Positions 30,220 to 47,117 of a stretch of DNA of 48,746 nt are shown here, in pieces. Origin of the DNA: an uncultured Anaerolineae bacterium (GTDB taxonomy: Bacteria > Chloroflexota > Anaerolineae > JACIWP01). Location of the stretch: positions 1 to 48,746 of the forward strand of contig CALIBQ010000033.1 in NCBI GenBank assembly GCA_938049385.1. Direction: 5' to 3'. Made by a program: the position numbers and the translations under genes. The stretch's first letter is position 1. Each line of letters opens with the position of its first letter. The notes under the pieces were generated by a model that saw only the letters and a list, made by a program, of their open reading frames with translations, made no database searches and was not told the DNA's origin.

Positions 30220-30852
30220 ATGCGAGCTGTCATCAAGCTCCTGGATCACATCATCCGCCGGCTTACCGGGGTGATCGAATACTCCCATGATCCCGAATGC
30301 ATCTTTCGGGTGCAGTTCGCGCCGGCCCCGCACCCTATCTTCTTATCCGACGGAACCCATGTCCCTGCCGGCGCGCCGATCCTGTTTCTGCACCTCTGGA
30401 ACGAACATATTCTCCCCATGCCGCCGGCCGGCCCGGACCTGGCCTGGGCACTGCAAACTGAACGCCAACTGCGCCGGTCTCTGCGCTGGCTGGCGGAGTG
30501 GATGGCGCAGACCCCGGCTTGTGAGGCGGTGCAGGCCATCGGCGGCATTACGGTCCTCATCTCCCCTGCCGGCCAGGACGGGAGCGAACACCTGCTCCGC
30601 CGGCTGGGGTTCGAAATCTTCCCCTGGCATCACCCGCTGGGGCGCTTCGCGGAGTTCTGGGAGAATTTGTACACCTGGGCCCTGATGTGGACGTTCAACC
30701 CCGCCAGCCTGCGCGGCCGGCGACTGCTGGAGCTAGAACGGAAGGAGTTCTGGGCCTCGCGCCAGGATTTCCTGGCGCGGCACGGGCGCCCGGCCCAGGC
30801 CGAGCCGAGCACCCGCGAGACGGCCGCTCCTGCTGATCGTACTGCGCATTAA
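30220..30852 (+). CDS. Uncharacterised protein, possibly YkoP-like
   Basis: A 210-residue soluble protein I do not recognise with confidence. It begins with LLDHIIRRLTGVIEYSHDPE, then CIFRVQF, a turn LSDGTHVPAGAPILFLHLWN ending in an EHI segment, then a helical region. The opening layout (helical start, 'IEYS/FRV' strand, 'LH-W-N' strand) recalls YkoP-like proteins encoded beside polysaccharide deacetylases, but that is a weak resemblance. AAGGAG lies 11 bases before the ATG. It has its own promoter and is tail-to-tail with the racemase-like gene, overlapping it by 4 bases at the stop codons. No signal peptide or membrane segment is evident. Confidence 0.7.
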   Translation: MRAVIKLLDHIIRRLTGVIEYSHDPECIFRVQFAPAPHPIFLSDGTHVPAGAPILFLHLWNEHILPMPPAGPDLAWALQTERQLRRSLRWLAEWMAQTPACEAVQAIGGITVLISPAGQDGSEHLLRRLGFEIFPWHHPLGRFAEFWENLYTWALMWTFNPASLRGRRLLELERKEFWASRQDFLARHGRPAQAEPSTRETAAPADRTAH

Positions 30853-31523
30853 CCCAGTGCTTCGAACACCGAGCGGACAAATTCCATTCCCAACTTGGGG
30901 CTGGTGAGCAGGGGGACGCGCCGACTCTCCGCCGGCATATCCTCCAGCACCCGCGCCATGGAGGCCTGCGCGAGCAGTACAACATCGTTCCGCGCCATCA
31001 TCTGTTCCAGACAGGCTCTCACCAGGCGGTCGTGTGTCTCCACATCACCCGCGAAGAGCGCGCTGTATGCGCCCTCACACAGCATGTAGTCCACCTTGAC
31101 CTCGCCGGCCCCCAGCTCCTGGGCGCGCCGGCGGACAAGATCGCCGATCGGCTTCAGCGCCGTCGGCGCTGTGGCGACAACCCCGATGCGCCGGCCGATC
31201 TTCAGCGCCTGGTCCACCATCGCCTGGTCAATCTTGATGACTGGCACCCGCACCACCTGCTGGGCCACATCTACACAGGGGGAGATCGAGTTGCAGGTCA
31301 CCAGGATGACATCCGCGCCGGCGCTCTCCGCCCAGACAGCATGCTCGCACAGCCGGTGGTTCAGCGCCGGCGTCGGACCACCCTCATCCAGCACTACCTT
31401 CAGCATCCCCTCATCCAGCAAATGAAAGCGCTTCACGCCGGGGAGCAGTTCCCTTGCCAGCCCATCGAACAGTGGAATCACCCCTGCGACGGTGTGCACC
31501 ATGGCCAGCATTCGTTCTTTCAT
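30849..31523 (-). CDS. Asp/Glu/hydantoin racemase superfamily protein
   Basis: A 224-residue protein with the racemase fold. The first catalytic-type cysteine is present (C77 in VTCNSISPC), but the second, normally in a GC or ECT context, is replaced in VVLLAQASMARV. Proteins with this AQASM variant are frequent in the superfamily but their chemistry is not established; a one-cysteine isomerase, decarboxylase or lyase is possible. Last gene of the ten-gene importer/methyltransferase operon, 12 bases after the TIM-barrel gene. Its stop codon overlaps that of the convergent orphan gene. Confidence 0.85.
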   Translation of the reverse strand: MKERMLAMVHTVAGVIPLFDGLARELLPGVKRFHLLDEGMLKVVLDEGGPTPALNHRLCEHAVWAESAGADVILVTCNSISPCVDVAQQVVRVPVIKIDQAMVDQALKIGRRIGVVATAPTALKPIGDLVRRRAQELGAGEVKVDYMLCEGAYSALFAGDVETHDRLVRACLEQMMARNDVVLLAQASMARVLEDMPAESRRVPLLTSPKLGMEFVRSVFEALG

Positions 31524-31535
31524 GTTGTGCGTTCC

Positions 31536-32366
31536 TTACCCAGTGTCGGTGTACCGCCGCATCAGCCGGCGCACAGCTCGCGCAGCCTGCACGCCGGCGG
31601 TGTCCGGGTCCGGCAGTGCCAGAAGCTCTGCCGACAGATACCCCTGATACCCTGCCTCGGACAGGGCGCGCAGGAACCGCCCGAAGGGGAAATGCCCCTT
31701 CCCCGGCGGCCGGCGGTTGCTGTCCCCCAGATGGATATGCCATAAGCGCGGCGCGACAGTATATACTGCCCGGCGCAGGCTTGCTTCCTCAATATTCATA
31801 TGGAACGTGTCCAGCAAAAGACCGAATGCAGGATGCTCCACCTCCCGCACCAGGGCCATGCCCTGCGCCGCGGTGTTCACAAAATCGGCCTCATAGCGGT
31901 TCAGCGGCTCCAGGGCGACGCGCAGGCCCTTTCCGCCGGCATACTCCGCACACGCTCGCAGTCGTTCGACCAGTCTCTCCCGCGCTCCCTCGCCGGCCTC
32001 TTTCAGCCGGCCGCGGAACGAACCGATGGTCACCAGCGGCGCGCCCACGGCGGATGCGAAGTCCGCCAATGCGCAGAAGCGCGCGAACGCCCGCTGCTCT
32101 ACCGCCGCATCCGCTGAGACCAGCGTCAGGCGGTCCACGAGAAACTGGGCGCCCGTGCCGATGGCCGCCGCTTCCAGGCCGGCATCCCGGATGGCGCCGA
32201 CGATGGCGCTGGCGTCCAGCTCCGCTGGCTCCCGCACCATCAGCTCCACCCCGTGATAGCCGCAGGCGGCGGCCTTCTGCAGGCGCTCCGCAAATGGGCC
32301 GGCGAACAGCGCCACCGGCACCGGTTGGGCAACCTCCGGGGTGGTCATGGTTACTGCGAGCTTCAT
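31536..32366 (-). CDS. Sugar phosphate isomerase/epimerase (AP endonuclease 2-type TIM barrel)
   Basis: A 276-residue xylose-isomerase-like TIM barrel. Metal-binding motifs are seen at the expected strands: VALEPLNRYEADFVN (Glu), GLLLDTFHMNIEEASL (Asp and His), and WHIHLGDSNRRPPGKGHFPF (His, Asp), followed by a final YLSAELLALP glutamate. This pattern fits D-tagatose 3-epimerase, hydroxypyruvate isomerase or inosose-type enzymes. It suggests that the imported compound, or its demethylated product, is a sugar or polyol derivative. Gaps to neighbours are 12-13 bases. The start at 32366 is the only sensible ATG before the first strand. Confidence 0.9.
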   Translation of the reverse strand: MKLAVTMTTPEVAQPVPVALFAGPFAERLQKAAACGYHGVELMVREPAELDASAIVGAIRDAGLEAAAIGTGAQFLVDRLTLVSADAAVEQRAFARFCALADFASAVGAPLVTIGSFRGRLKEAGEGARERLVERLRACAEYAGGKGLRVALEPLNRYEADFVNTAAQGMALVREVEHPAFGLLLDTFHMNIEEASLRRAVYTVAPRLWHIHLGDSNRRPPGKGHFPFGRFLRALSEAGYQGYLSAELLALPDPDTAGVQAARAVRRLMRRYTDTG

Positions 32367-32379
32367 GGGTTTCCCTGCC

Positions 32380-33735
32380 TCACAAGAGCTGTTTCTCCAG
32401 CGCCGCGATAGACTCGTGCAGGATATCCACGATTTCGTCCACCTGCTCCCTGGTGATAATCAGCGGCGGGGCCAGCAGGATGGCATCGCCGGCGTACCCA
32501 TCCACGTTGCCTCCGCAGGGATAGGTGATCAGGCCGCGCTGGAACGCCTCTTCCTCCAGCTTACGCGCCATCCCCATCTGCGGTGGGAACGGCTCTTTCG
32601 TCGCTTTGTCGCGCACCATCTCGAACCCCACCATCAGCCCCAGCCCGCGCACGTCGCCGATGATGGCGTGCTGGCGCAGGGTATCCAGCCGCTCCAGCAT
32701 GTATTTGCCGATCTCCGCGCAACGTTCGACCAGTCCGTGCTTCTGGAGGTAGCGGATGACGGCGATGACTCCGACGCAGGAGACGGCGTTGGCGTTCAGG
32801 GTGTGGCCGGCCTTAAAGGGGGAATTGTGGTCAATCAGCGGCTGCCAGACCTCATTGCGGGCGATGATTGCCGAAAGAGGCGTATAGCCGCTGGTAATGC
32901 CCTTGGCAGTGGCGATAATATCGGGGGTCACGTCGTCCCAGTGCTCGATGCCCCACATTTTCCCCGTGCGCCCCAGGCCAGTCATGACTTCATCGGCGAT
33001 GAAGAGCACGTTGTACCTATCGCAAATCTCGCGAATGAGCTGGAAATAGCCCGGGGGCGCCGGCACTGCTCCCAACGCCGCTCCCACCACCGGCTCCGCA
33101 ATGAAGGCGGCGATATACTCCGGCCCCACCTGACGAATGATGGACTCCAGGGAGCGAGCGCATTTCAGCCGGCAGGCTGGATAGCTCAGCTCGAAGTAAC
33201 AGCGGTAGCAGTACGCCGGCGGGATATGGGGCATGTCCACGAACATGGGCTGAAAGATGGAACGCCGCTGGGTGATGCCGGAAAAGCCGGCGACAGCGAT
33301 GTTGTTGCCGTGGAACGCCTGCCAGCGCCCCACAACCAGGTACTTGCTGGGGACGCCCTTCTCCACCCAGTACTGCCGCGCCAGGCGCACCGCATCATCC
33401 ACCGCGTCGGTCCCCGTGCAGGTAACCCACACCTTGGCGTTATCCCGCATCGCGCCCGGCGCCAGCTTCACCAGCAGTTCCGACAGCTCGCGGAACGGCT
33501 GATTGCTGAAGGCGTGGGCCGGGTAAAAGCTGAAAGCTTTCGCCTGCTCGTACATGGCGTCTACAACTTCCATCACGCCGTGGCCGATGGTCACCACCAC
33601 CGAGGAGCCGCCGGTGGCGTCAATATAGCGCCGGCCCTCCGTGTCATACAGGTAAATGCCCTCTGTGCGGGCAATCACCCGATACTCCCTGTCCCAACTG
33701 CGGTGTACTGCGTACGGATGCGGCTGTACGCCCAT
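32380..33735 (-). CDS. Class III PLP-dependent aminotransferase
   Basis: A 451-residue omega-amino-acid/ketone aminotransferase. Seen: YDTEGRRYIDATGGSSVVV near the start, the TGTDAVDDAVRLAR glycine-rich PLP-phosphate region, FIADEVMTGLGRTG (Asp binding the PLP nitrogen) and the Schiff-base lysine K278 in ATAKGITSGYTPLSA. An unusual cysteine-rich insert CYRCYFELSYPACRLKCARS (about residues 177-196) might bind a metal; it is found in some taurine- or beta-alanine-type relatives as far as I recall. AAGGAGGG precedes the ATG. Such enzymes transfer amino groups from non-alpha amines, so the operon's substrate may contain a primary amine after demethylation. Confidence 0.92.
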   Translation of the reverse strand: MGVQPHPYAVHRSWDREYRVIARTEGIYLYDTEGRRYIDATGGSSVVVTIGHGVMEVVDAMYEQAKAFSFYPAHAFSNQPFRELSELLVKLAPGAMRDNAKVWVTCTGTDAVDDAVRLARQYWVEKGVPSKYLVVGRWQAFHGNNIAVAGFSGITQRRSIFQPMFVDMPHIPPAYCYRCYFELSYPACRLKCARSLESIIRQVGPEYIAAFIAEPVVGAALGAVPAPPGYFQLIREICDRYNVLFIADEVMTGLGRTGKMWGIEHWDDVTPDIIATAKGITSGYTPLSAIIARNEVWQPLIDHNSPFKAGHTLNANAVSCVGVIAVIRYLQKHGLVERCAEIGKYMLERLDTLRQHAIIGDVRGLGLMVGFEMVRDKATKEPFPPQMGMARKLEEEAFQRGLITYPCGGNVDGYAGDAILLAPPLIITREQVDEIVDILHESIAALEKQLL

Positions 33736-33761
33736 GCCGTAACCCTCCTTGCAAGATTGTG

Positions 33762-34772
33762 CTATTGTTCTCCCAGCACCCTTCCGTCAGGGGTGATCGC
33801 CGTTACGCGCCGCACTCCTTCATATGCTACCAGCAGTACTTCCGTCTCCAGCGCTTCGCCGGCCGTCAGCGCCGGCGCGCGGCCGGCGGCATACGCTTCG
33901 GACAGCGCCGACGGCCAGCCCGTGGACGGTTCCACCACGATCGCCTCCAGCCCCCGCCAGCCGCCGTACGTCAGGAACAACCAGCAGGTGCGGAACAGTT
34001 CCTTGGAAAAGCGAATGCCCACCCCGACGCCGGCCTCGCCATCCGTCACGGCCACCCAGCCGTCCAGCAGTTGCTCGACATAATGCTGGTCGCAGACGCC
34101 GGCCGTGATCGGGAGAGCGCATGACACATCCACTGGCCGGCCGTCCTTCCCTCGGGCCAGCGGCCAGGTATACGTCAGGCACTCTGGATCGAACCGTTCC
34201 GTGTTCCAAGGGTCAATGACCATAGTATCCGCCGGCAGGTCAATGCGCACCCCTTCCCGCGTGCGCAGGGCCGCATGCAGGTTCCACATGAAATGGAACG
34301 GCAGGGGGCCGATATTGGTCAGCCGATAGCGGATGCGGAAGACACTTCCTCCCTCCGCCAGGGCGATCCATTTATCGAAGCGTGCCGGCGTCAGTGGGGA
34401 GTAACACCACATATGCACCGACACACGCGCCGGCCCCTCCTCCCGCACTTCCCATTCCCAGCGCTGGGTCCACAGCTCGCCGTGGTCATGCAGGGGCATA
34501 TCGCGCCACACTTCCTGGCGCACGTTGGGGAAGACATCGTCCCATCCGCCGGCCCAGGTATCGTCATACGGGGTGCCGGGTGGGTAGACGGCCGGCGGGA
34601 CGCGCGGGTTCTGCCAGAAGAGCTCCGCATCCCGCGGCTTATAGACCAGAGAATACATCTTGCCGCCGGCGTCCGGCAGTACCTCCAGCCGCACCGTTTC
34701 GTTCTCGATGAGCAGAGCGGGCAGTCCGAAATGCGACCAGCTTGTATCCACGCGTGCCGGCATCCCTTTCAC
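33762..34772 (-). CDS. Galactose-mutarotase-like protein (DUF5107/DUF4432-like)
   Basis: About 333-336 residues with the aldose-1-epimerase beta-sandwich look: LEVLPDAGGKMYSLVYKPRD near the start, AGGWDDVFPNV, then MWNLHAALRTREGVRIDLP (His candidate) and a final VVEPSTGWPSALSEAY. It probably binds or interconverts a carbohydrate anomer. Start is ambiguous: a GTG at 34772 overlaps the UroD-like stop (GTGA), while the ATG at 34763 has GAGGGG 8 bases upstream. Its presence, with a sugar-type importer and a TIM-barrel isomerase, is the best hint that the substrate has a sugar moiety. Exact family assignment is uncertain. Confidence 0.78.
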   Translation of the reverse strand: MKGMPARVDTSWSHFGLPALLIENETVRLEVLPDAGGKMYSLVYKPRDAELFWQNPRVPPAVYPPGTPYDDTWAGGWDDVFPNVRQEVWRDMPLHDHGELWTQRWEWEVREEGPARVSVHMWCYSPLTPARFDKWIALAEGGSVFRIRYRLTNIGPLPFHFMWNLHAALRTREGVRIDLPADTMVIDPWNTERFDPECLTYTWPLARGKDGRPVDVSCALPITAGVCDQHYVEQLLDGWVAVTDGEAGVGVGIRFSKELFRTCWLFLTYGGWRGLEAIVVEPSTGWPSALSEAYAAGRAPALTAGEALETEVLLVAYEGVRRVTAITPDGRVLGEQ

Positions 34773-35965
34773 CCCTCGCGCCAGTGGATCTGCGAGGCGT
34801 ATTCCTCGCCGATCTTGCGCATGGCCCAGTAAAACTCGGTCAGCGCCTCGTCGCTCCAGCTTTCCCCATCAATGATGCAGACCGGGACAGCGATGGTGCC
34901 GGGGAGCATTTTGTCCATCATCTCGCGGAAGCCGGCCAGCATTTCCTCCGCGCTCTCGCCGTTGTCGAACATGGCGAAGACCAGCCCCCGGCCGGCGAAC
35001 TCCTTTCCCAGGCGCTCAAAATCCCTGCGGGTATAGCGGAACGAGCAGTTCAGCCCGCGGATGGGGGGCGTATGCTCCAGGATTTCCCCGCCGGGCGGAT
35101 GCGGCCCGCAGTTATGGAGGAGGCCGCCGCCGTAGCGGGCGAAGAAGCGGCTGTTGTAGGGCCGGCCGAACTCCTTCCACATCGCCGGGCTGAGGTGCAC
35201 CATGACGTCGTCGCTGACGAAGCCCTTGTAGGGCAGGGGAGCCCAGGTCGGGTCAAAATCCGTGGTCGTCATGTTCTCCATGCCGCCGCAGGCGGCGATG
35301 ATGGCATCGTAGCAGGCGATCATGGTGCTGGTGATATGCTCCAGCAGGTGGTGCACCGCCGGCGGGTTATCGTACAATGCCGTGTAAAACACATGGCTGT
35401 CCACGATGTCCTTGCAGGTGTTCAGCGGCCCACCCAGGTCGATGCCCGAGAGGGGAATCCGCCCGCCTGTCACAGAGCGGAAGAGATGGATGCGGCGCAG
35501 GCACTCCGGCATTAGGCCGCGGGTGATGGGGTTCCAGCGCGGCAGGGCATACACCTGGTCAATCTGTGTGATGATCGGCGCCGTAACGCCCGGCATCTGA
35601 TTGGGGTCATCGCTCCAGAAGACCTCACAGCCGTAGACAGTAGCGATGGTCATATAGCCGACATCGGGGCGAAGCCAGGGGATGTAATCGTCGGGCAGGG
35701 CGCGCAGACAGCGCTCCACCGCCACCAGGTTGGCCTCGAGCTGATACTCACTGCTTTCCAGAAGCTGGCGCATCGTCAAGCCGCGGGGATTGCACGTCAG
35801 CCAGATAATGATGGGGATGTGATCCACCCGCCGGTAGTCCCACAGGCGCTCCCGTTCGGCCTTGCGGCGCGCGATCTCTCTGTCGTCCCACTGGAGCCGG
35901 CCCAACAGGTTGGCAAAGTCAGCGGCCGGCTCCGTGACTCCCCGTTCCACGAACTGTTCCCTCAT
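34769..35965 (-). CDS. Uroporphyrinogen-decarboxylase-fold protein, likely corrinoid:acceptor methyltransferase
   Basis: A 398-residue URO-D superfamily protein. It lacks neighbours for haem synthesis and instead sits between an MttB-family and mutarotase-like gene, next to a corrinoid protein. In methylotrophic systems URO-D-fold proteins (MtaA, MtbA, CmuA C-terminal) move methyl groups between corrinoid protein and a thiol or folate. A possible zinc-site piece is H284-x-C286 (LLHNCGPH), reminiscent of the HxC of MtaA/MtbA; the more distal Cys is not obvious. Its ATG overlaps the MttB-family stop (ATGA). Many Chloroflexota paralogues of this group are uncharacterised, so the acceptor is unknown. 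Confidence 0.82.
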   Translation of the reverse strand: MREQFVERGVTEPAADFANLLGRLQWDDREIARRKAERERLWDYRRVDHIPIIIWLTCNPRGLTMRQLLESSEYQLEANLVAVERCLRALPDDYIPWLRPDVGYMTIATVYGCEVFWSDDPNQMPGVTAPIITQIDQVYALPRWNPITRGLMPECLRRIHLFRSVTGGRIPLSGIDLGGPLNTCKDIVDSHVFYTALYDNPPAVHHLLEHITSTMIACYDAIIAACGGMENMTTTDFDPTWAPLPYKGFVSDDVMVHLSPAMWKEFGRPYNSRFFARYGGGLLHNCGPHPPGGEILEHTPPIRGLNCSFRYTRRDFERLGKEFAGRGLVFAMFDNGESAEEMLAGFREMMDKMLPGTIAVPVCIIDGESWSDEALTEFYWAMRKIGEEYASQIHWREG

Positions 35966-37455
35966 TTGCGGCTTTCCTCGCGCCGGCGGATGATCTCTTT
36001 GGCCTTGCGCACACCTTCCTGGCAGATGGCTTCAATTTCTGCCGCCTGTTCTGGGGTAACGGGCAGAGGCTCCTGCTCGGCCTGTGCCAGGATTTTGCGT
36101 GCCAGCTCATTGGCGTATTGGCGCATGCTCTTGGCGCCGGCGGCCTCCCATTTGTCCCACGGATCGCGGTTGGTCAGCGTGGGAATCCAGCGGTCCTGGC
36201 GGTAGAACTCGCGCGTCTCGCGCTTGGTGAGGAAGTGCTTGCCCAGCGGCCCGCCCTCCTTGCGCAGGAGGTCCACCGAAAGGGTAAAGTCATTGACCTC
36301 GAAGCCGCGCGCAATGCGGAAGCAGGCGCCGATAATCTCCTCGTCAATCAGGCACTGCTCATAAGAGGCCAGGAGCATTTGCTCCATCATGCCGTAGGCC
36401 AGGTGGATGAAGTTGGTGCCGCTGAGCATATTGGTCAGCACCTGCAGGGCGCGCTCATAGCCGGCCTGGGCGTCGGGGAGCTTGGCGTCAATGCCCGTAC
36501 CACCCTGGAAAGGTAGGCCAAAGTGATGGGCGAGCTGGGCGGTAGCGGCGTGGAGGAGGGTGGTCTCGGGGGCGCCGCCGGAATAGACGCCGGTGCGCAT
36601 GTCAATGATGCCGGACGCGATGGCGAAGATGCAGGGGGTGCCCGGATTGACGAGCTGGGCCAGCACCACGCCGGCCAGCACGTTGGCGGCTTGCTCCACC
36701 AGCGTGCCGGCGATGGGGGCCGGCGTCGTGGCCCCGCACAGCGCATCCACCTCGATGTACAGCGGGATATTCCAGCGCGCCGACTCCATGATGACCTCGG
36801 AGTTCTGCGGCTCATGCTTGAGGGGGCTGATCATGCAGACCACTTCGGTGAAGGTCGGCTTGCGCTTCACCTCCTCGGTGCTCCCTTGGAACACCGCCGC
36901 CATGCGTACCTGGTCGCGCACCGATTCGGCGGTCTGGGCCTGAGAGTAGAAATTGCGCCAGGTGTTGCTGTAGCAGGTGGCGAAGTTGACCAGCTCGTAG
37001 CCAACCTCATCCACATCGGAGGGGATGACGATCTGGTGCATGATGTCCAGGTTGGGCATGTGGTCCAACAGGCGCGTTATCAGCCGCAGGTCTTCCCGCA
37101 CCGCCAGCCGGTGGTTGCCGTCCAGGTCCAGCACGTAGGGGGCGCAGGAGCCGCTCATGGTGTAGACGCGCTCCAAATCCACCTTGACATCGTAGTCCTC
37201 GGTCTTGCCGTACAGTGTGAAGAAGCTGGGGGCGGTCTGCAGAGCCTTGCGGAGCAGTCCCTCGCTGATTTTGACCACGTGGTTGTCCCAATCCACGGTC
37301 GCGCCGTGGTGGTCGGCGAACAGCTCGAGCGCCGGCCGATAATCCATCTTCACGCCCATCTCGGAAAGGGTCTCGATGACCGCGAAATACAAGGCGTTCA
37401 GGTCGCTATCGTCCAAGAATTTCAGGCGCTGACAGCGCAATCCTCGCCGTGGCAT
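35962..37455 (-). CDS. MttB-superfamily corrinoid methyltransferase (non-pyrrolysine)
   Basis: A 497-residue protein of the trimethylamine methyltransferase (MttB) family, a TIM barrel that transfers a methyl group from its substrate to Co(I) corrinoid. The frame is continuous, with no amber codon, so it belongs to the non-pyrrolysine branch (MtgB, MtpB, MtcB, MtyB and others act on glycine betaine, proline betaine, carnitine, gamma-butyrobetaine). Seen: SGSCAPYVLDLDGNHRLAV, CGATTPAPIAGTLVEQAANV and the GGTGIDAKLPDAQAGYERAL segment. AGGAGGTCTTCC precedes the ATG. It overlaps the UroD-like gene and lies 17 bases after the corrinoid gene. Substrate unknown. Confidence 0.92.
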   Translation of the reverse strand: MPRRGLRCQRLKFLDDSDLNALYFAVIETLSEMGVKMDYRPALELFADHHGATVDWDNHVVKISEGLLRKALQTAPSFFTLYGKTEDYDVKVDLERVYTMSGSCAPYVLDLDGNHRLAVREDLRLITRLLDHMPNLDIMHQIVIPSDVDEVGYELVNFATCYSNTWRNFYSQAQTAESVRDQVRMAAVFQGSTEEVKRKPTFTEVVCMISPLKHEPQNSEVIMESARWNIPLYIEVDALCGATTPAPIAGTLVEQAANVLAGVVLAQLVNPGTPCIFAIASGIIDMRTGVYSGGAPETTLLHAATAQLAHHFGLPFQGGTGIDAKLPDAQAGYERALQVLTNMLSGTNFIHLAYGMMEQMLLASYEQCLIDEEIIGACFRIARGFEVNDFTLSVDLLRKEGGPLGKHFLTKRETREFYRQDRWIPTLTNRDPWDKWEAAGAKSMRQYANELARKILAQAEQEPLPVTPEQAAEIEAICQEGVRKAKEIIRRREESRK

Positions 37456-37472
37456 GGAAGACCTCCTGTGGT

Positions 37473-38141: not shown

Positions 38142-38176
38142 GACATCTCCTCCGAATGCGGATTACGAGAAAGCGA

Positions 38177-39058: not shown

Positions 39059-39060
39059 CG

Positions 39061-39927
39061 CTACGCGTACGCTCCTTCCTCACCCAGGATGCGGTTCTGC
39101 AGGAGGATGAAGACAATCGTGATAATGACCAGCAGTACGGAGGTGGCCGAGGCGATATGCATCATGCGGTAGCGGAAGCCCATCAGGTAGATGTACAGCT
39201 CCGTTACCATGGTGGCATTGCCCGGCCCGCCGTTGGTCATCACGTAGATATAGTTGAACACCCAGCTCAACATGGTGAAGACGCTGATCACGGTGAAGAA
39301 CTCGATCACCGATTTGAGCTGGGGGATGGTGATATACCACTGGAGCTGGAGCCAGTTGGCGCCGTCCAGACGTGCCGCCTCGAACAGCTCCTCCTGCACC
39401 GACATCAGGCGCGCCAGGAAGAGCACCACGCCGAAGCCCACCTCTTTCCAGATAATCACCACCATGACCACCCAAAGGGCGTACTCCGATTTCCCCAACC
39501 AGTCCTTGGCCAGCGCCCCCAATCCTATGCTCTGGAGGATGGTATTGACCACGCCGCGATACTGGAACATGTACCCGAAGATGACGCCCACCACGGTGAT
39601 GGAAAGCAGGTAGGGCAGGAAGAGTGTGGTGCGGTAGAACTGCCAGCCGCGGATTTGTTCGAAGAGCAGGATGGCCAGGAACAGCGCCAGGCCTACCATG
39701 ATGGGGACGCTGAGCAGCAGCTTGGCGTTATTGGCGATGGCCATGCGGAACACGTCGTCGGAAAACAGGTAGCGGAAGTTGCTCAGGCCCACGAAGACCA
39801 TTTCGCTGCCGCGCGGGGCCAGCAGGCTGTCGCGAAAGAGGCGCACCACCGGGTAGAAGAAAACCAGCAGGAGGATGAGGGTGCCGGGTGCGATAAAGAG
39901 ATACGGCTCATACCACTTGTATTTCAT
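39061..39927 (-). CDS. Sugar-type ABC importer permease (MalF/UgpA/CUT1)
   Basis: A 288-residue permease with six predicted helices. The EAA loop is EAARLDGANWLQLQWYITIP. The N-terminus YLFIAPGTLILLLVFFYPVV and the loop YIYVMTNGGPGNATMVTELY are standard for the MalF-like partner. It is preceded by a strong hairpin (39963-39996) after the binding-protein gene. Substrate specificity is set by the binding protein. The start at 39927 is the only ATG before the first helix. Confidence 0.94.
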   Translation of the reverse strand: MKYKWYEPYLFIAPGTLILLLVFFYPVVRLFRDSLLAPRGSEMVFVGLSNFRYLFSDDVFRMAIANNAKLLLSVPIMVGLALFLAILLFEQIRGWQFYRTTLFLPYLLSITVVGVIFGYMFQYRGVVNTILQSIGLGALAKDWLGKSEYALWVVMVVIIWKEVGFGVVLFLARLMSVQEELFEAARLDGANWLQLQWYITIPQLKSVIEFFTVISVFTMLSWVFNYIYVMTNGGPGNATMVTELYIYLMGFRYRMMHIASATSVLLVIITIVFILLQNRILGEEGAYA

Positions 39928-39962
39928 GCTGTCTCACCGTCTCCATCAGACTTGGGATAGCC

Positions 39963-39996
39963 GGCTGGCGGCCCGCCGGCGTAAGGGCCGCCAGCC
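39963..39996. other. Intercistronic hairpin after the CUT1 binding-protein gene
   Basis: GGCTGGCGGCCC (39963-39974) and GGGCCGCCAGCC (39985-39996) form a perfect 12-bp stem with a 10-base loop. It sits 10 bases past the binding-protein stop and 35 before the permease. No U-tract follows. The layout is the same as at the BMP importer (22068-22103). Confidence 0.72.
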
Positions 39997-40006
39997 GCAT
40001 CCTATC

Positions 40007-41407
40007 CTATTTGCCCAACCACTTCTTGAAATGCTCCACAGCGTCGGGGTTCTGACTGCGCCACTTTTGGATGACTTCCTCGGAGAGCTGGGCCGCCTGC
40101 TCGGCGTCAATCTCGCCGGCCAGCAGACGCTGGACCCCGACAAAGTTCGCCTGCTCGTCCAGCATGGAGGGGGCGAAGTTCTCCAGGTTTGGATTGGGCT
40201 TCTCCACGATCCACCCGAATATCTTGCGCATGATGGGTGAGGTGATCTGATTCGGGTCAAAGCGGTCGTCCGCCGGGAAGACGCCGGTGTGCTTGTACCA
40301 GGCGTTGAGGCGGTCGGGGGTGTGCATGAAGAGCAGGAAGTCCGCCGCCTCCTGCTTATGCGGCGACCAGGAGGTGATGCCCAAGCCCTGTGCGGTCACC
40401 ACGTAACCGCCGGCGAGCTTGCCCTTGCCCCAGACCGGTATCTTGGCGACGCCAAAGTTCTCCTCGCCGATGAGGTCCATCCAGCCCTTGTAGAACGTGT
40501 CGTTGCCAAAGATCATGGCCGCCTGGCCCTGCACCCACAGGTCCTGGCCCTGCTGGTAATCCAGCGAGGTGATGTCCGGGTTCCAGTAGCCCTTGTCGCG
40601 CAGTTCTTGGAGACGCTTCCACCAGTCGGCAAACTTAGGGTCGGTGAATTTGTACTCGCCGATGGAGGCGGCTTTCAGCTCATCGGCACTGTCCAGGGCC
40701 TGATGCTCGAGCAGTTGCCAGAGCCAGCCGCCGAACCAGCCGTCCTTGACCCCGCCGGCCAGCGGCGTGATGCCGGCGTCCTTCAGCTTCTGACATACTG
40801 TCAGGAACTCGTCCCAGGTGGTGAAGGGATTTTCGGTATCGATGCCGACTTTGGCAAGCAGTGCTTTGTTATAGGCGATGGAGTTGCCGGAGAGGTACCA
40901 AGCCATGCCCCACAGCTTGCCGTCATACATGCGCTCCTCGTTGGAGATGAGATGGTTGATCTCATCCTGCGGCCAGTAATCGGAGAGGGGGACGAGGGAG
41001 CCGGCCCAGGCATCCTCCAGCGTCCAGACGCCGCCCCAGAAGTACTGGATGTCGGGGCCCTGCTTGGCATCTGCGGCGGCCTTGAAGGCGGGGATCAAGC
41101 CGTCGGTGGTCTGGAGCACATGTTGAATCTTGATGTTGGGGTGGAGCTTTTCGTATTCGGCAATGGTCTCTTCCAGCCAGGTCTGGGCGCCGGGGGCTTC
41201 CTGTTCGCCCCACCACCAGATGGTCAGGGTAATCTGTTCCTCTTTGGCCGGCGCAGGGGTGGAGGTTGGTACGGGTGCGGCGGTGGCCGGCGCTTCTGTG
41301 GGCGGAGGTGCTTGCGTGGGTTGCGGAGCGCACGCCGGCAGTGATGCCAGAACCGCCAGCAGGGCGATCACTGCCCAAACTGCCAACGATTTGCGGAAAG
41401 ATTTCAT
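40007..41407 (-). CDS. Family 1 extracellular solute-binding lipoprotein (CUT1)
   Basis: A protein of about 466 residues with a lipoprotein signal peptide (lipobox LPAC, followed by APQPTQAPPPTEAPA, a Pro/Thr/Ala linker as in many Chloroflexota). The mature part opens with ITLTIWWWGEQEAPGAQTWL and has WYLSGNSIAYNKALLAKVGI, the usual MalE-like hinge pattern, and QDLWVQGQAAMIFGNDTF. It likely binds an oligosaccharide, glycoside or polyol outside the membrane. ATG at 41407 has AGGAGG 7 bases upstream; a GTG one codon earlier is the alternative. First gene of the ten-gene operon, with a leader of about 300 bases. Confidence 0.93.
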   Translation of the reverse strand: MKSFRKSLAVWAVIALLAVLASLPACAPQPTQAPPPTEAPATAAPVPTSTPAPAKEEQITLTIWWWGEQEAPGAQTWLEETIAEYEKLHPNIKIQHVLQTTDGLIPAFKAAADAKQGPDIQYFWGGVWTLEDAWAGSLVPLSDYWPQDEINHLISNEERMYDGKLWGMAWYLSGNSIAYNKALLAKVGIDTENPFTTWDEFLTVCQKLKDAGITPLAGGVKDGWFGGWLWQLLEHQALDSADELKAASIGEYKFTDPKFADWWKRLQELRDKGYWNPDITSLDYQQGQDLWVQGQAAMIFGNDTFYKGWMDLIGEENFGVAKIPVWGKGKLAGGYVVTAQGLGITSWSPHKQEAADFLLFMHTPDRLNAWYKHTGVFPADDRFDPNQITSPIMRKIFGWIVEKPNPNLENFAPSMLDEQANFVGVQRLLAGEIDAEQAAQLSEEVIQKWRSQNPDAVEHFKKWLGK

Positions 41408-41715
41408 CACCTGCCTCCTTCTTCCTTGCCTTTGCGGTCATGAGTAACCACCTTTCAGACGCACAACCTTGTTCTGCGTTCATCACCTCCTTTCCGCGCC
41501 GCAATATAAGCATGGCACATGTCTTGATCCTTGTATTGAATCAACGGTACATCATTTGGGAACAGGCCACCATGCACTGCAGTGTTGTCGGACTCGTTTC
41601 AGCGGCCAGATTGGATGACTGCCTATCCGCACGTGCTGTGATGAGGGGTCTGTATTTTATTTCACGAATCAAAAAAAAGAAACCCCATAAATTCGAAGCG
41701 TCTGGCTATACTACC

Positions 41716-41744
41716 AATATAGCACAAAAATTGGGCCATGTCAA
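41716..41744 (-). promoter_or_regulatory. Promoter of the importer/methyltransferase operon
   Basis: On the minus strand a perfect TTGACA (41744-41739) and TATATT (41721-41716) are 17 bases apart. The leader runs about 300 bases to the binding-protein ATG and includes an unrelated upstream frame opened by AAAGGAGGTGATG (see findings). Confidence 0.78.
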
Positions 41745-41775
41745 TAGGACTTTTTTGAATTTTGACAAAAAGTTA
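41745..41775. promoter_or_regulatory. Candidate ROK operator between the divergent promoters
   Basis: The 31 AT-rich bases between the two -35 boxes contain the inverted repeat CTTTTTTG (41750-41757) and CAAAAAG (41766-41772). A repressor here would block both promoters. ROK regulators are known to bind AT-rich inverted repeats; the assignment is inference. Confidence 0.35.
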
Positions 41776-41804
41776 TTGACTTTTCGAACGACTTCGTGTA
41801 TAAT
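41776..41804 (+). promoter_or_regulatory. Promoter of the ROK regulator gene
   Basis: TTGACT (41776-41781) and a perfect TATAAT (41799-41804) are 17 bases apart. Transcription would begin near 41811, shortly before the start codons. Confidence 0.8.
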
Positions 41805-41838
41805 GAGATAAGGCTTTATTGGATGAAGGATGGATGTC

Positions 41839-43131
41839 ATGCCCATTTGCGAGGAACCACAAGCGCTCCGCCTGCTGGAGATCGCCCGTACCATCTGGCA
41901 TGACGCCGGCGAGGTCACGAAGAAGTCGCTGGCCGAACGCTTGGGCATGAGCGTTTCCTCCATCAGCCGGCTGACCGATGAGCTGGAACGCATGGGGGTG
42001 ATCGTCGCAGTCGGGACGCATCCCTCCAGCGGCGGCCGCCGGCCGGCAGTGCTGGGCATCAACGCCTCTCTGGGCTACACCATCGGACTGGATATCGGCG
42101 GCGCCAATACCCGCGGCATCGCGGCAGACCTTAATCACCAGCTCAGCTCCACTATCCGGATGCCCACTGCGCAGGCGCTGGAAAGCTCCGATAACCTGCT
42201 CAACCTGGAGCGCATGGTGCGCCGCGTCATCAATGCGGGGGCACTGGACCCACATCTTCTGCACGCCATCGGCGTCGCCATCTCCGGCGTCATCGACACC
42301 AACGCCGGCATCTGCCGCTTTTGCCCCAACATCCGCGGCTTTATTGACCTGCCGGTAAGGCATTATCTTCAGGACCGCTTCGGCGTACCCGTAATCGTGG
42401 ACGACAGCGTGCGCGCTGCCGCGGTCGCAGAATACAAGTTCGGGCTGGCCAAGGACATGCCCAACTTCCTGCGAGTCGCCGTCGGCATCGGTATCGGAGC
42501 CGCCATCATGCTGGATGGGCAGATTTACCGCGGGGTGGATGGCACCGCCGGCGAACTCGGGCATATCCAAGTGCGGGAGGACGGTGAGCGCTGTAACTGC
42601 GGCAACCGCGGCTGTCTGGAGGTGCTGGCCTCCGGGCCGGCCATCGTGCGGCGTGCCCAGCAGTCCATGGCAGAGGGCATCCAGACCTCTCTTGAGACGC
42701 TGGTCAAGCGGGGCCAGAAGCTTACTGTCGAGGCCATTGCGCAGGCCGCCCGCCAGGGCGATAAGATGGCCTTTTACATCATGAACCGCACCGGCGAGTA
42801 TCTCGGCATCGCGATTGCCACTGCCTTGAACCTGTTGGGCGTGCAGGATGTCATCATCGGAGGCGGGGTGTCCCAGGCCGGCCCTATCCTGCTCGACGCC
42901 ATCGAGCGCACTATCCGCTTCCGCGTCATGCCGGCCCTGGCCCCTAAAGTGCGCGTCCATGCCACCGCCTTGGACGACCTAGCCGCGGCGCGCGGTGCCG
43001 CCTGGCTCGCTGCCGAACAGCTCTTCCTGCCCCAGGCGCTTGCCCAGGGCCATTCCATCCTCGATATCGCCGGCCGCATCCAGCCGGCGCGCAACACCCA
43101 CCATCTTCCCCAGCCAATACAAGGAGCGTGA
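41839..43131 (+). CDS. ROK-family transcriptional regulator (NagC/XylR type)
   Basis: About 430 residues. An N-terminal winged helix-turn-helix (TKKSLAERLGMSVSSISRL) is followed by a ROK sugar-kinase-like domain: IGLDIGGANTRGIAADL (ATP/phosphate-1-like), GVAISGVIDT, GTAGELGHIQV and the zinc motif C252-x-C254-x4-C259 (CNCGNRGCLE). The DIGGANTRG segment departs from the kinase consensus DxGGT, in keeping with a regulator that binds a sugar without phosphorylating it. ATG at 41839 is preferred (AAGG 9 bases upstream); 41830 is possible. Divergent from the importer operon, which it probably represses until a sugar-like inducer is present. Confidence 0.92.
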   Translation: MPICEEPQALRLLEIARTIWHDAGEVTKKSLAERLGMSVSSISRLTDELERMGVIVAVGTHPSSGGRRPAVLGINASLGYTIGLDIGGANTRGIAADLNHQLSSTIRMPTAQALESSDNLLNLERMVRRVINAGALDPHLLHAIGVAISGVIDTNAGICRFCPNIRGFIDLPVRHYLQDRFGVPVIVDDSVRAAAVAEYKFGLAKDMPNFLRVAVGIGIGAAIMLDGQIYRGVDGTAGELGHIQVREDGERCNCGNRGCLEVLASGPAIVRRAQQSMAEGIQTSLETLVKRGQKLTVEAIAQAARQGDKMAFYIMNRTGEYLGIAIATALNLLGVQDVIIGGGVSQAGPILLDAIERTIRFRVMPALAPKVRVHATALDDLAAARGAAWLAAEQLFLPQALAQGHSILDIAGRIQPARNTHHLPQPIQGA

Positions 43132-43133
43132 GA

Positions 43134-44258
43134 ATGCCCCTGCCCGATTGGCTCTTCCCGATCCTTGACTCGGCAGTCCGTCGTGGCGCCGACGCTCTGC
43201 TCATCACCAGCCCGGTGCACCTGTTTTACCTGGCCGGCATCCATCTTCCTGGCTCCCGTCCTGCCGCACTGCTCCTCGACTCTTCCCGCGCTGAATTCGT
43301 CGGATGCGAGGATGACGCGCTGAGCGCGCGCCAGGCCGCCCCCTGGCTGACCCATTTCTCCGAATTCCCATATCATCCCCGTCAGGGCGCCGGCGCTCTC
43401 CTCGAAGGATTCGAACGGGCGATGGCCGACGCTCTCCAGCGTTGGTCGGCCATCTCATGCTGGGGAGTCGAGGCCGGGCACCTGCCCCAGGCCGCCGGCA
43501 GGGTGCTGGGCCCTGCCCTTACTGTGGATGTTACTGAGATCATCTTACGCGCGCGTCTGCGCAAGCGGCCGGACGAGATCGCGCGCGTCGCCGCCGCGGT
43601 TTCCTGTAACGACACCGCCTTCCAGGCGGTGGCCGGCGCTATCCGAGCGGGTATCTCCGAGCTGGAACTGCTGGGGCAGGCCTTCGCCGGCATGTGCCGT
43701 GCCGCTGAGGAAGCTCCTTTCCTGAACCTGGCGGTCAGCGATGCGGTCAGCGGCCCCCGCACCTGGGAGATCGGCGGACCGGCCACGGCACGCCGGCTCC
43801 AACCAGGGGAACTTTTCCTGCTGGACATCTCCACGCGCTATCAGGGCTATTTCGCCGATACCACGCGCTGTTTCATTCTGGGTGAGCCGGGCGCGGAACT
43901 GGCGAAGATGCACCGCACGCTGGAGGAAGCCGTGCAGGCCGGCCAGGAAGCCATCCGCCCGGGCCTGCGCGCCGGCGAGCTGGACGCCATCGTGCGCGGT
44001 ATCGTGCTGGGCGCCGGCTATCCGCCTGAACACTTCCCTCACCATGTCGGGCACGGTATCGGCCTTGCGCCGCAGGAAGACCCCTGGATCGTGCCCGATA
44101 ATGACCAGATGCTTGAGGAAGGTATGGTCTTCACCCTGGAGCCGGGCATTTACATCCCTGGAGTGGGCGGCATGCGCCTTGAGGACAATTTCGTAGTTAC
44201 GGCCAATGGCTGTCAGGCGCTCTCGAGCTACCCGCGCCGGCTGACTGTTTTGACATAA
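43134..44258 (+). CDS. M24-family metallopeptidase / creatinase-like ('pita-bread' fold)
   Basis: A 374-residue protein with the creatinase N-terminal domain and a pita-bread C-terminal domain. All five metal ligands of a Xaa-Pro peptidase are present: D231 (LLDIST), D242 (FADTTR), H307 (HHVGHGIGL), E336 (TLEPGIY) and E350 (MRLEDNF). A metal-dependent peptidase is therefore more likely than creatinase, which lacks the metals. ATG at 43134 has AAGGAG 7 bases upstream and lies 2 bases past the ROK stop. Co-transcribed with the ferredoxin and AOR 2 genes. It might cleave an N-methylated or proline-like amide substrate (inference). Confidence 0.9.
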   Translation: MPLPDWLFPILDSAVRRGADALLITSPVHLFYLAGIHLPGSRPAALLLDSSRAEFVGCEDDALSARQAAPWLTHFSEFPYHPRQGAGALLEGFERAMADALQRWSAISCWGVEAGHLPQAAGRVLGPALTVDVTEIILRARLRKRPDEIARVAAAVSCNDTAFQAVAGAIRAGISELELLGQAFAGMCRAAEEAPFLNLAVSDAVSGPRTWEIGGPATARRLQPGELFLLDISTRYQGYFADTTRCFILGEPGAELAKMHRTLEEAVQAGQEAIRPGLRAGELDAIVRGIVLGAGYPPEHFPHHVGHGIGLAPQEDPWIVPDNDQMLEEGMVFTLEPGIYIPGVGGMRLEDNFVVTANGCQALSSYPRRLTVLT

Positions 44259-44275
44259 CGTGTTGAGGTTGGCTC

Positions 44276-44728
44276 ATGAAAGGACGCATCCTGCTCTTCG
44301 ATGCCGCGAGCTGTACCGGCTGTCTTTCCTGTGTTACCGCCTGCAGTATGCATCATGTGGACGCGGTATCGCCGGCCTCGGCGCGCATCCATATCGAGTT
44401 TGATCCCTTTGTGAACCGCTGGCCGGCGGTCTACTGCCGGCAGTGCACCGCCGCCCCCTGTGCCAAAGCCTGTCCTGTAGAAGCAATCCGTCTGGACGAA
44501 CGCGGGGAATACTGGTACGTGGACTACGAGCGCTGTATCGGCTGTATGCTCTGCATTGATGCTTGTCCCTTGGGCGCGATGTTCTATGACCCACATCATG
44601 ACCAGGTCATCAAGTGCGATACCTGTGGGGGCGAGCCGGCATGTGTCAAGGTCTGTGCGACGCAGGCGCTGGTTTGGGGGGATGCGTCCGACCGCTCGCT
44701 GTACCGCAAGCAGAAAGGCCGGCGCTGA
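44276..44728 (+). CDS. Four-cluster [4Fe-4S] ferredoxin subunit (AOR partner)
   Basis: A 150-residue electron-transfer protein of the HycB/DmsB/CooF type. Sixteen cysteines form four CxxCxxCxxxC-like sets: C13, C16, C19 and C23 first (CTGCLSCVTAC), then CRQCTAAPCAKAC, CIGCMLCIDAC and CDTCGGEPACVKVC. No signal peptide, so it acts in the cytoplasm. It is encoded 25 bases before AOR 2, as with other AOR-type enzymes that work with a polyferredoxin subunit (for example BamC with BamB, or AorA with AorB). It likely carries electrons to or from AOR 2. Confidence 0.93.
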   Translation: MKGRILLFDAASCTGCLSCVTACSMHHVDAVSPASARIHIEFDPFVNRWPAVYCRQCTAAPCAKACPVEAIRLDERGEYWYVDYERCIGCMLCIDACPLGAMFYDPHHDQVIKCDTCGGEPACVKVCATQALVWGDASDRSLYRKQKGRR

Positions 44729-44753
44729 GACTATTCGTGCAAGGAATTCGCTT

Positions 44754-46751
44754 ATGGCCGCTACTACAACCACTTCTACATCCTTTGGCTGGACCGGTCG
44801 GATACTGCGCGTCGACCTTTCCACGGGGGAAATCTGGACACAACCCAGCATGGAGTACAACCTGCGCTACATCGGTGGGCGCGGCGTGGGCGCGCGGCTG
44901 GCGTGGGAGGAGATCTCCCCGGGCGTGGGAGCGTTTGACCCGCGCAATCCGCTGATGATCTTCGCCGGCCCCCTGACCGGCACGTCGGCGCCCTTCTCCG
45001 GCCGCACCATCATCATGGGCGTCAGCCCGCAGTCCTATCCCATCGAGTGGTTCAGCCGCAGTAACGTCGGTGGGCATTTCGGCCCTGAGCTGAAATGGGC
45101 CGGCTATGACGGCATCGCCATCACCGGCCAGGCGGAACGGCCCCGCTATCTCTTCATCGAAAATGGGCGCGTCGAACTGCGCGACGCCGGCGAGCTGTGG
45201 GGGCTGGACACCTACGAGGCCCAGCGCCGGCTGATGGCTGCCCACGGCAAAAGCGTCCGCATCCTTTCCATCGGGCCGGCCGGCGAGCGCCTCAGCCGCA
45301 TCGCTATCATCAACACCGAGACCGAATCGGCCGCCGGCCAGGGCGGTTTCGGCGCCGTCATGGGCCACAAGCGGCTGAAGGCCATCGTGGTGCGGGGCAC
45401 CGGGCAGGTACACATCGCTCGGCCGGCACTGTTCCGCCAGCGCTGTCAGGCCATCGCTGAGGAAGCTCATGCGCCGCTGGGATGGCCGGGGCCGGCGCGT
45501 CTGGACCCCGAAAAGGTGGTCAAATACGGCGAGCGCTTCCACGTTTGCACGCAGGGGTGCACCGTGCGCTGTTCCGAATGCCGCTGGTACGACCGCGTAC
45601 CGGGTGTTGTGCGCAAGGGCAGGATATACAGCGGCCAGTTCCACTGCGCCTCAGCGCTTTTCCCCGGCGTGCCTGGCACGTTCTACGACTGGAAGCTCGG
45701 CTTCGAGGCCGGCTTTGAGCTGAGCACCATCTGCAACGAGTACGGCCTGAACCAGTGGGATATCCTGTTCGGCATCGTGCCCTGGCTGAGGGACTGCCGG
45801 CGCGCCGGCCTGCTGAACGACCTGGATGGCATCCCCATTGACCCCGACGACCCGCATTTCTGGGCGGAACTGCTCCGCAGAATCGCCCTGCGAGAGGGCA
45901 TTGGCGACGCGCTGGCGGAGGGCGGCCGGCGTGCCCCGGACATCCTCGGCTTCGGCAGGGAATTCGCCGATGAATATTACGCCGCCTGGGGATATGCCGG
46001 CCATTGGGACGGGCACGGCAACCGCATCAACGAGATATTTTTCCCCTTCTGGCTGGTGCCGGCACTGCAGTGGGCGATGGATACCCGCGATCCCCTCTCC
46101 AGCGGACACGGCTACGCGCAGAACATCATGACCTGGTCGAAACATCTTTCCCCGCAGGCCGGCCTGGACTGGGAGACCATCGCTGACGTCGCAGCGCGCG
46201 TTTACGGCTCCCGCCGCGCCGCGCATATCCGCTCCGGCTATGAGGACAAGGCCTTTCCTGCCTTCTGGCACGGTCAGCGCAGTGTCATCAAGGATTCCCT
46301 GCTGGTGGACGACCAAATTTTCCCGCGCATCTACAGCGAGAAGACGCCGGACCACTTTGCCCGCGCCCTGGATATGGACGGCCCCGCGTTCGAGTATCAC
46401 ATGTTCACCGCCGCCACTGGGCTGAACATCTCCGAGGCGGAATTTGAACGAATGGCTGAGCGCGTGTTTAATATAGAGCGAGCGGTGCTGGTGCGGAATA
46501 ACGGCCGCGATCGCGCCATGGACGAGTCGGTCATCCCCTATTTTGCGAAGGTCGAATGGTGGACCAACCCGGAGCTGGGAGAGCGTCAGGCGCTGGACGT
46601 GGAGCGGTTCCGCCGGCTGATGGATGAATACTACACCCTGCGCGGTTGGGACCCGCGCACCGGCTGGCCCACCCGCCGGCGCCTGGAGGAATTGGGACTG
46701 CGCGATATCGCGGATGAGCTGGAGCGCATCGGCCGGCTGGGGCCGGCATAA
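44754..46751 (+). CDS. Aldehyde:ferredoxin oxidoreductase family protein (AOR 2) with altered cluster ligands
   Basis: A 665-residue AOR homologue. The tungstopterin domain is clear: TGRILRVDLSTGEIW, GGRGVGARLAWEE and NVGGHFGPELKWAGYDGIAI. The iron-sulfur ligands differ from AOR 1: four cysteines cluster at C265-x3-C269-x3-C273-x2-C276, and the distal cysteine of the usual DSLGxC motif is replaced by Asp519 (DSLLVD). The four local cysteines may hold the cluster themselves. ATG at 44754 (AAGGAATT upstream) is preferred to a frame from 44556 that overlaps the ferredoxin gene. Substrate unknown; co-encoded with its ferredoxin and a GYD protein. Confidence 0.9.
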   Translation: MAATTTTSTSFGWTGRILRVDLSTGEIWTQPSMEYNLRYIGGRGVGARLAWEEISPGVGAFDPRNPLMIFAGPLTGTSAPFSGRTIIMGVSPQSYPIEWFSRSNVGGHFGPELKWAGYDGIAITGQAERPRYLFIENGRVELRDAGELWGLDTYEAQRRLMAAHGKSVRILSIGPAGERLSRIAIINTETESAAGQGGFGAVMGHKRLKAIVVRGTGQVHIARPALFRQRCQAIAEEAHAPLGWPGPARLDPEKVVKYGERFHVCTQGCTVRCSECRWYDRVPGVVRKGRIYSGQFHCASALFPGVPGTFYDWKLGFEAGFELSTICNEYGLNQWDILFGIVPWLRDCRRAGLLNDLDGIPIDPDDPHFWAELLRRIALREGIGDALAEGGRRAPDILGFGREFADEYYAAWGYAGHWDGHGNRINEIFFPFWLVPALQWAMDTRDPLSSGHGYAQNIMTWSKHLSPQAGLDWETIADVAARVYGSRRAAHIRSGYEDKAFPAFWHGQRSVIKDSLLVDDQIFPRIYSEKTPDHFARALDMDGPAFEYHMFTAATGLNISEAEFERMAERVFNIERAVLVRNNGRDRAMDESVIPYFAKVEWWTNPELGERQALDVERFRRLMDEYYTLRGWDPRTGWPTRRRLEELGLRDIADELERIGRLGPA

Positions 46752-46823
46752 CTATACCGGCCTGTTCTGCCGCTGTCTTTTTTCGACAATGGGGTCGAGG
46801 CTCAGCGAAGGAGGAGGTGGGAT

Positions 46824-47117
46824 ATGGCAACCTTTGTCCTGCTGACCAAGGTTTCGCGCCGGGGCATCACCCAGATGCGCAATCTAGCAGAAATGGACCG
46901 CGAGTTCGAGCAGAAGCTTCGCACTACCTGCCCAGAGGTGCGGCGCATCGCCAGCTATGCGTTGCTGGGCCCCTACGATTTCCTGCATATCTTCGAGGCC
47001 CCGGACGAGAAGACCGCCGCTAAGGTGGCACTGCTGGCCAACTGCTTTGGTGTGGAGTCTACCCAGACCTTGACGGCCATCCCCTTTGACGAGTTTGCGG
47101 CGCTGATGCACGAGTAG
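46824..47117 (+). CDS. GYD-domain protein
   Basis: A 97-residue protein of the GYD family, a small ferredoxin-like alpha-beta fold. Seen: FVLLTKVSRRGITQMRN at the start and LLGPYDFLHIFEAPDEKTAA then GVESTQTLTAIPFDEF, the family's core. GYD proteins often follow AOR- or dehydrogenase-type genes, but their role is unknown; an oligomeric small-molecule sensor or regulator, as in Lrp/AsnC ligand domains, is a guess. Strong GGAGGAGGTGG upstream. It is separated from AOR 2 by 72 bases containing the short palindrome GGCCGG/CCGGCC (46741-46762). Confidence 0.88.
   Translation: MATFVLLTKVSRRGITQMRNLAEMDREFEQKLRTTCPEVRRIASYALLGPYDFLHIFEAPDEKTAAKVALLANCFGVESTQTLTAIPFDEFAALMHE

Follow-up and report, generated by a model that had tools for sequence, protein, structure and literature searches.

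What does a corrinoid-dependent methyltransferase do beside a sugar importer? The question is raised by a 48,746-nucleotide stretch of DNA from an uncultured Anaerolineae bacterium (hereafter the window), which, as contig C33, belongs to a metagenome-assembled genome of a Chloroflexota bacterium (3.37 Mb in 85 contigs, 98% complete). Ten minus-strand genes in the window (positions 30849-41410) encode a CUT1-type importer, a corrinoid protein, an MttB-superfamily methyltransferase, a UroD-family protein and four further enzymes, and a divergent operon encodes a ROK-family regulator with a ferredoxin and an aldehyde ferredoxin oxidoreductase (AOR). We give about an even chance to the proposal that the ten-gene operon serves to take up a methylated carbohydrate-like compound and to demethylate it in a corrinoid-dependent way; the genes are observed, and we infer the ligand and the direction of each methyl transfer from them. 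The initial annotation of the window had described a non-betaine, sugar-importer-coupled corrinoid demethylation system, and that description is upheld here by the placement of the MttB homologue outside the MtgB clade, by the absence of the proposed betaine-pocket residues and by independent sugar-linked cassettes in the same genome and phylum.

The MttB homologue lacks the proposed betaine pocket

The window MttB is encoded by an uninterrupted frame of 497 amino acids with no UAG, and the alignment has a gap or Gly at the pyrrolysine column; with no stop codon within the frame, it is a non-pyrrolysine member of its family, as had been annotated. The closest solved structure is that of MtgB (2qne, E 5e-72, 31% identity), and identity to the pyrrolysine MttB is 33%, so that MtgB is no nearer. 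In trees of 117 and 52 rows the window MttB and the ortholog of a sister species form an isolated long branch outside the starred MtgB group, and a position as sister of that group is not rejected (p-AU 0.47 in the approximately unbiased test). The phylogeny proposed earlier against MtgB, MtpB, MtcB and MtyB thus gave a place outside the MtgB clade, in trees that took in MtgB as the only one of these enzymes and MthB.

A docking study proposed that five MtgB residues, Y94, N199, R309, H345 and F/Y353, make contact with glycine betaine in the pocket (PMC6855144). At these positions the window MttB has S, C, Q, L and M, keeping none of the five, and N, R and H are kept in most MttBs of the MtgB group, including plasmid-borne ones from betaine-importer contexts. 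A paralogue on host contig C38 (L009, 8811-10316) keeps Y, N, R, H and Y; because of this pocket it is the likelier glycine betaine enzyme, and is probably the glycine betaine methyltransferase of the host organism.

The substrate might still be a quaternary-amine amino acid or a betaine of some other kind, with the CUT1 proteins acting as a recruited binding-protein importer and the aminotransferase, racemase and M24 enzyme degrading the demethylated amino acid. We regard this as possible, but unlikely. The missing pocket residues count against it, as do the CUT1 importer, the IolO-like epimerase, the mutarotase-like protein and the ROK regulator, all of which indicate sugars, and as does a comparison set of 14 plasmid MttB contexts, which had betaine-type (7), polyamine-type (1) or peptide-type (1) importers or none, and in none of which a CUT1 set adjoined MttB. 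Some of these plasmid neighbourhoods lend this alternative some support: racemase and aminotransferase genes lie near an MttB with a betaine-family importer on a Leisingera plasmid, and M24 enzymes adjoin MttB on three alphaproteobacterial plasmids, of Sinorhizobium, Shinella and Parasedimentitalea. It is also favoured by the accessible portion of PMC12155760, where the MttB-superfamily substrates named are all quaternary amines, with no sugar among them.

A single operon, maintained in two species

The ten genes (Table 1) lie in a single run, spaced by -4 to 79 bases and ended on its 3' side by a convergent YkoP gene (30220-30852) that bounds the operon of the sister species too. Profile searches found all annotated genes in place, with family matches well above chance. 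The coupling that had been read as ATGA overlaps stands as far as the four-base overlaps are concerned; the start codon is ATG at mttB/uroD, and GTG at uroD/mutarotase-like and at ROK/M24. In the sister species, RSWS7 (JAPWUQ01, G002), nine of the ten genes lie on one contig at 84% DNA identity with order and frames kept, up to the contig end inside permease 1, and the UroD is intact and 91% identical to that of the window. The ratio of nonsynonymous to synonymous substitution rates (dN/dS), computed between the two species for seven genes, ranges from 0.04 for mttB through 0.06-0.08 for permease 2, the aminotransferase and the corrinoid protein to 0.13-0.19 for the racemase, epimerase and mutarotase-like genes, and the operon is under purifying selection. 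The AOR/GYD arm is mostly present in RSWS7 as well, on another contig, at 90% DNA identity.

That unrelated sugar uptake and corrinoid methyl transfer merely adjoin each other by chance is very improbable given the tight run with overlapping frames, the kept gene order, the dN/dS values and the independent repetition of such coupling in other loci, even if the host genome has 21 MttB homologues, few of which adjoin a corrinoid gene, and the exact gene set occurs in only two species. On this last point the proposed search for a 14-gene synteny across Chloroflexota was negative: the exact cassette was found in two species of one genus only and, by the criterion set in the initial annotation, is nearly lineage-limited. 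Searches with MttB, UroD and the mutarotase-like family covered 400 sampled Chloroflexota genomes, those compared being drafts. They gave no MttB ortholog (next best match 37%) and no UroD match above ~32%, and the third genome of the genus has no MttB ortholog either; a scan of genome contigs with the window MttB returned the sister species only.

Two possible positions for the UroD-like protein

The corrinoid protein joins a B12-binding_2 cap to a B12-binding domain, and the annotated D-x-H-x2-G motif was seen as GDLHDIG; its score against TIGR02370, 212.6 bits, falls just under the cut-off of 215.3. The Rfam scan of the window gave no match at all, and hence no cobalamin riboswitch. Of the 'UroD-like methyl acceptor' in the initial annotation, the UroD family membership stands, and the acceptor role was an assignment, not an observation. 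The protein scores 38.6 bits against TIGR01463 (MtaA/CmuA; cut-off 235.4), matches MtaA in the PDB at E 0.05, and has a zinc-type motif, H284-N-C286, as do most of its aligned relatives, with a distal Cys363 that aligned without confidence. Structure predictions for the UroD-like protein (two sequences, predicted local distance difference test score, pLDDT, 37) and for the binding protein (single sequence, pLDDT 46) were unusably poor.

CdmB is counted among the UroD-family proteins. It is a first, substrate-side methyltransferase, placed in the family partly by its homologue set (PMC13222342). Judged by such relatives, UroD-family proteins may be first or second methyltransferases, and the one in the window may be either (MTI or MTII). 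One could then imagine O-demethylation led by the UroD-like protein, as the substrate-side methyltransferase for an O-methyl sugar, with MttB acting on a second methyl group or substrate. Besides CdmB, the UroD-corrinoid pairs without MttB in three sugar-linked operons (L152, L186 and L191, Table 1) are in favour of such a scheme, which we nevertheless find doubtful: the UroDs of L152 and L191 have H-x-D in place of the MtaA-type H-x-C of the window UroD, and its identity to those proteins is only 17-20%.

The sugar side and the divergent arm

An SBP_bac_1 protein and two BPD_transp_1 permeases make up the CUT1 importer, the binding protein being closest to the chitin-oligosaccharide-binding NagB2 (7eho, E 4e-26) and other CUT1 proteins. 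The mutarotase-like protein itself has no Pfam match over the cut-off; its family profile matches the aldose 1-epimerase 3ty1 (E 3e-11), 20 of 23 family members match DUF4432, and the family occurs in 58 of the 400 Chloroflexota genomes, often adjoining CUT1 permeases. For the TIM barrel, the nearest relatives are IolO/TM0416 and tagatose 3-epimerases (NCBIfam IolO, 227 bits, cut-off 300).

Between the two arms (41411-41829) a consensus scan found two back-to-back promoter-like sites, one for each arm. Inverted repeats between these sites were considered as a ROK operator, which is not claimed, the repeats being AT-rich and imperfect. In the divergent arm the AOR has both AFOR_N and AFOR_C with the polyferredoxin adjoining, and its start, annotated in a longer frame, is corrected to near 44754. 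The ferredoxin was rightly described as four-cluster, with 16 cysteines counted.

Sugar-linked corrinoid cassettes elsewhere in the phylum

New in this analysis is the observation that the coupling of sugar importers with corrinoid genes recurs, with different genes, elsewhere in Chloroflexota (Table 1). The GntR, MttB, amidohydrolase, CCG, GlcD and FGGY genes of cassette L018, on host contig C1, recur at 50-72% identity in L103 of G021, which shares the phylum of the host but not its class, there also with an aldo/keto reductase, a zinc alcohol dehydrogenase and a formylmethanofuran:tetrahydromethanopterin formyltransferase (FTR) gene. The permeases of L152 are ~31-33% identical to both host CUT1 sets and therefore represent a separate lineage. 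L191, judged by its gene content, looks like O-methyl-sugar demethylation without MttB. In L204 an AOR and a four-cluster ferredoxin recur beside MtmB, corrinoid and MttB genes, which bears out the AOR/ferredoxin arm of the annotation. Because the sugar-linked loci use different importers, kinases and methyltransferases, repeated assembly is suggested, not one inherited block. That Chloroflexota repeatedly built corrinoid-dependent demethylases for methylated carbohydrates, with CUT1 or phosphotransferase system (PTS) importers, corrinoid protein, MttB, MtmB or UroD, and sugar kinases, epimerases or aldolases in one operon, is a tentative proposal, to which we give somewhat less than an even chance. 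Such loci are a minority of the 80 corrinoid loci sampled across Chloroflexota, in a survey whose automatic gene picking may overlook genes.

Table 1. Features of the window and sugar-linked corrinoid loci in the host (L018) and other Chloroflexota genomes
Feature	Location	Strand	Matches or gene content
Asp/Glu/hydantoin racemase-like protein	30849..31523	-	PF01177 (Asp_Glu_race) E 2.4e-22
IolO-like ketose-3-epimerase-type TIM barrel	31536..32366	-	AP_endonuc_2 E 3e-44; TM0416/IolO E 1e-42
Class III aminotransferase	32380..33735	-	Aminotran_3 E 1.4e-90; omega-transaminases in PDB
DUF4432/aldose-1-epimerase-like (mutarotase-like) protein	33762..34772	-	family profile
Divergent UroD-family protein, corrinoid methyltransferase MTI or MTII	34769..35965	-	URO-D E 5e-11
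MttB-superfamily methyltransferase, non-pyrrolysine	35962..37455	-	PF06253 (MTTB) 319 bits, cut-off 25, residues 9-467
Methyltransferase cognate corrinoid protein	37473..38141	-	B12-binding E 1.5e-26, B12-binding_2 E 2.5e-21
CUT1 permease 2	38177..39058	-	BPD_transp_1; best NCBIfam GlcU/UgpE; dN/dS 0.06
CUT1 permease 1	39061..39927	-	BPD_transp_1; best NCBIfam UgpA/GlcT
CUT1-type extracellular solute-binding lipoprotein	40007..41410	-	SBP_bac_1 E 4e-31
Promoter-like site for ten-gene operon	41716..41744	-	TTGACA-17-TATATT, TG-extended; 11/12 consensus matches
Promoter-like site for ROK operon	41776..41804	+	TTGACT-17-TATAAT; 11/12 consensus matches
ROK-family regulator (NagC/Mlc type)	41830..43131	+	ROK E 1.2e-64 and winged helix-turn-helix; best NCBIfam NagC
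M24 (creatinase/Xaa-Pro dipeptidase-like) enzyme	43128..44258	+	Peptidase_M24 E 2e-46
Four-cluster ferredoxin	44276..44728	+	Fer4 families; 16 Cys in four clusters
AOR, YdhV-like	44754..46751	+	AFOR_N E 3e-71; PDB AOR/FOR E ~1e-58
GYD-domain protein	46824..47117	+	PF08734 E 3e-20
L018	host C1:19000-38900		GntR - CUT1 binding protein, two permeases, MalK - pterin methyltransferase - corrinoid - MtmB homologue (10889-12280) - MttB - FGGY kinase (xylulokinase-like) - LacD-type aldolase - GlcD-like - CCG - amidohydrolase
L152	G186		CUT1 - CUT1 - corrinoid - UroD
L186	G017		UroD - TIM - FGGY - corrinoid - pterin, one tight run
L191	G021 C15, 2086-10740		UroD - GH38/57-type glycosidase - alcohol dehydrogenase - LarA-like - corrinoid - D-lyxose-isomerase-like - FGGY
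L204	G013 C518		GntR - PTS sorbose/mannose-type EIIC/EIID - LacD aldolase - alcohol dehydrogenase - MttB - OCD - corrinoid - MtmB - four-cluster ferredoxin - AOR

Some further observations concern the surroundings of these loci. The FTR homologue of L103 (G021 C38, 11030-11911) lies within the MttB-FGGY operon. In three genomes (L156, host C4, 6526-13402; L198; L149) an MtmB homologue with no in-frame stop, a corrinoid gene and a BMP/PnrA-type (nucleoside-type) importer form one run; the non-pyrrolysine MtmB homologue MtqB acts on quaternary amines (PMC13044021). Near the ten-gene operon, and outside it, a Rieske/VanA-type oxygenase of an oxygen-dependent demethylase-like family (27995-28981) stands beside a major facilitator superfamily transporter. 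At the window end, ~95 bases within 48598-48746 recur at some 28 contig ends of the host genome, and the frame there, which by eye resembles the start of an IS630-type transposase, interrupts an open reading frame (47248-48744) with CBM96 and SdrD_B domains.

A possible pathway and the points against it

The reading that employs every gene has the compound imported, its methyl group handed to the corrinoid protein and on to a folate-type acceptor, and what is left of the skeleton converted. The CUT1-type importer would take up a small methylated carbohydrate-like compound, and the MttB homologue, as suggested by its family, would demethylate it, with Co(I) of the corrinoid protein receiving the methyl group. 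RACo-type activases, two of which are encoded in the host genome, might hold the corrinoid in the reduced form. The methyl group would then pass to a folate-type acceptor, via either the UroD-like protein or a pterin-type methyltransferase encoded elsewhere; among four PF00809 genes of the host, two are 31% and 52% identical to the pterin-type methyltransferase in the cassette on C1. Alternatively, the UroD-like protein might act on the substrate side, as a second methyltransferase there. The demethylated product would perhaps be remodelled by the mutarotase-like protein, the IolO-like epimerase, the class III aminotransferase and the racemase-like protein, and the AOR/ferredoxin pair may oxidise an aldehyde product. 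From its place beside the two divergent promoter-like sites, we infer that the ROK protein probably responds to a sugar-like inducer and regulates the two arms.

We favour the sugar side because of the importer, the mutarotase-like family, the IolO-like epimerase and the ROK regulator. An amino-sugar, a polyol or a glycosylated methylamine, as named in the initial annotation, are candidate substrates. Since the MttB-family chemistry known to date shows a preference for quaternary nitrogen, MttB would somewhat more probably act on a sugar-like compound that is N-methylated or bears a trimethylammonium group than on an O-methyl sugar; UroD-corrinoid cassettes do occur in sugar-linked operons, and O-methyl sugars are therefore plausible substrates for UroD. 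Several points weigh against a carbohydrate ligand. CUT1 importers (UgpB type) are not strictly sugar-specific, and the ten-gene operon has no MalK-type ATPase gene, which the host C1 cassette does have. The aminotransferase, the racemase and the M24 enzyme suggest amino-acid-like chemistry, just one of the 80 sampled corrinoid loci had a strong pair of CUT1 permeases beside it, and to these are to be added the confinement of the exact cassette to two species and the exclusively quaternary-amine substrates named in the accessible portion of PMC12155760. A literature search of partial coverage gave no report of corrinoid-dependent sugar demethylation.

Even so, B12-dependent demethylation in Chloroflexota probably extends past betaines to sugar-like compounds, because other members of the phylum have similar operons, assembled separately, in which sugar and demethylase genes are combined. 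If this is true, MttB-superfamily enzymes would have in methylated carbohydrates a class of substrate that the accessible literature does not list for them, and such carbohydrates, from plants, algae or microbes, would join the methyl donors of anaerobic sediment bacteria. The setting among sugar importers and sugar enzymes would give these MttB-family members a concrete, testable substrate class.

Comparison with known systems

The closest counterpart is MtgB/MtgC of Desulfitobacterium hafniense, likewise a non-pyrrolysine MttB-family protein with its cognate corrinoid protein. The window MttB, in contrast, stands outside the MtgB group with all five proposed pocket residues changed, and its operon has no betaine importer and a UroD in place of a pterin-type methyltransferase. 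MtpB, MtcB, MtyB and MthB of Eubacterium limosum, compared by description in the accessible portions of PMC8604678 and PMC12155760, each pair an MttB-superfamily member with a corrinoid protein for a single substrate, whereas a setting with CUT1, epimerase, mutarotase and ROK genes is not reported for them there. With MtaA and CmuA, the window UroD shares the UroD family and the H-x-C motif, but is very divergent from them, as its scores indicate. The epimerase belongs to the same TIM-barrel ketose-3-epimerase family as the IolO 5-keto-L-gluconate epimerase of Thermotoga (TM0416), yet scores under the IolO equivalog cut-off. Finally, CUT1 sugar importers such as NgcEFG, NagB2 and others have the same binding protein and two permeases; here, unlike in those systems, these are joined in one operon with corrinoid methyltransferase genes and without an ATPase gene.

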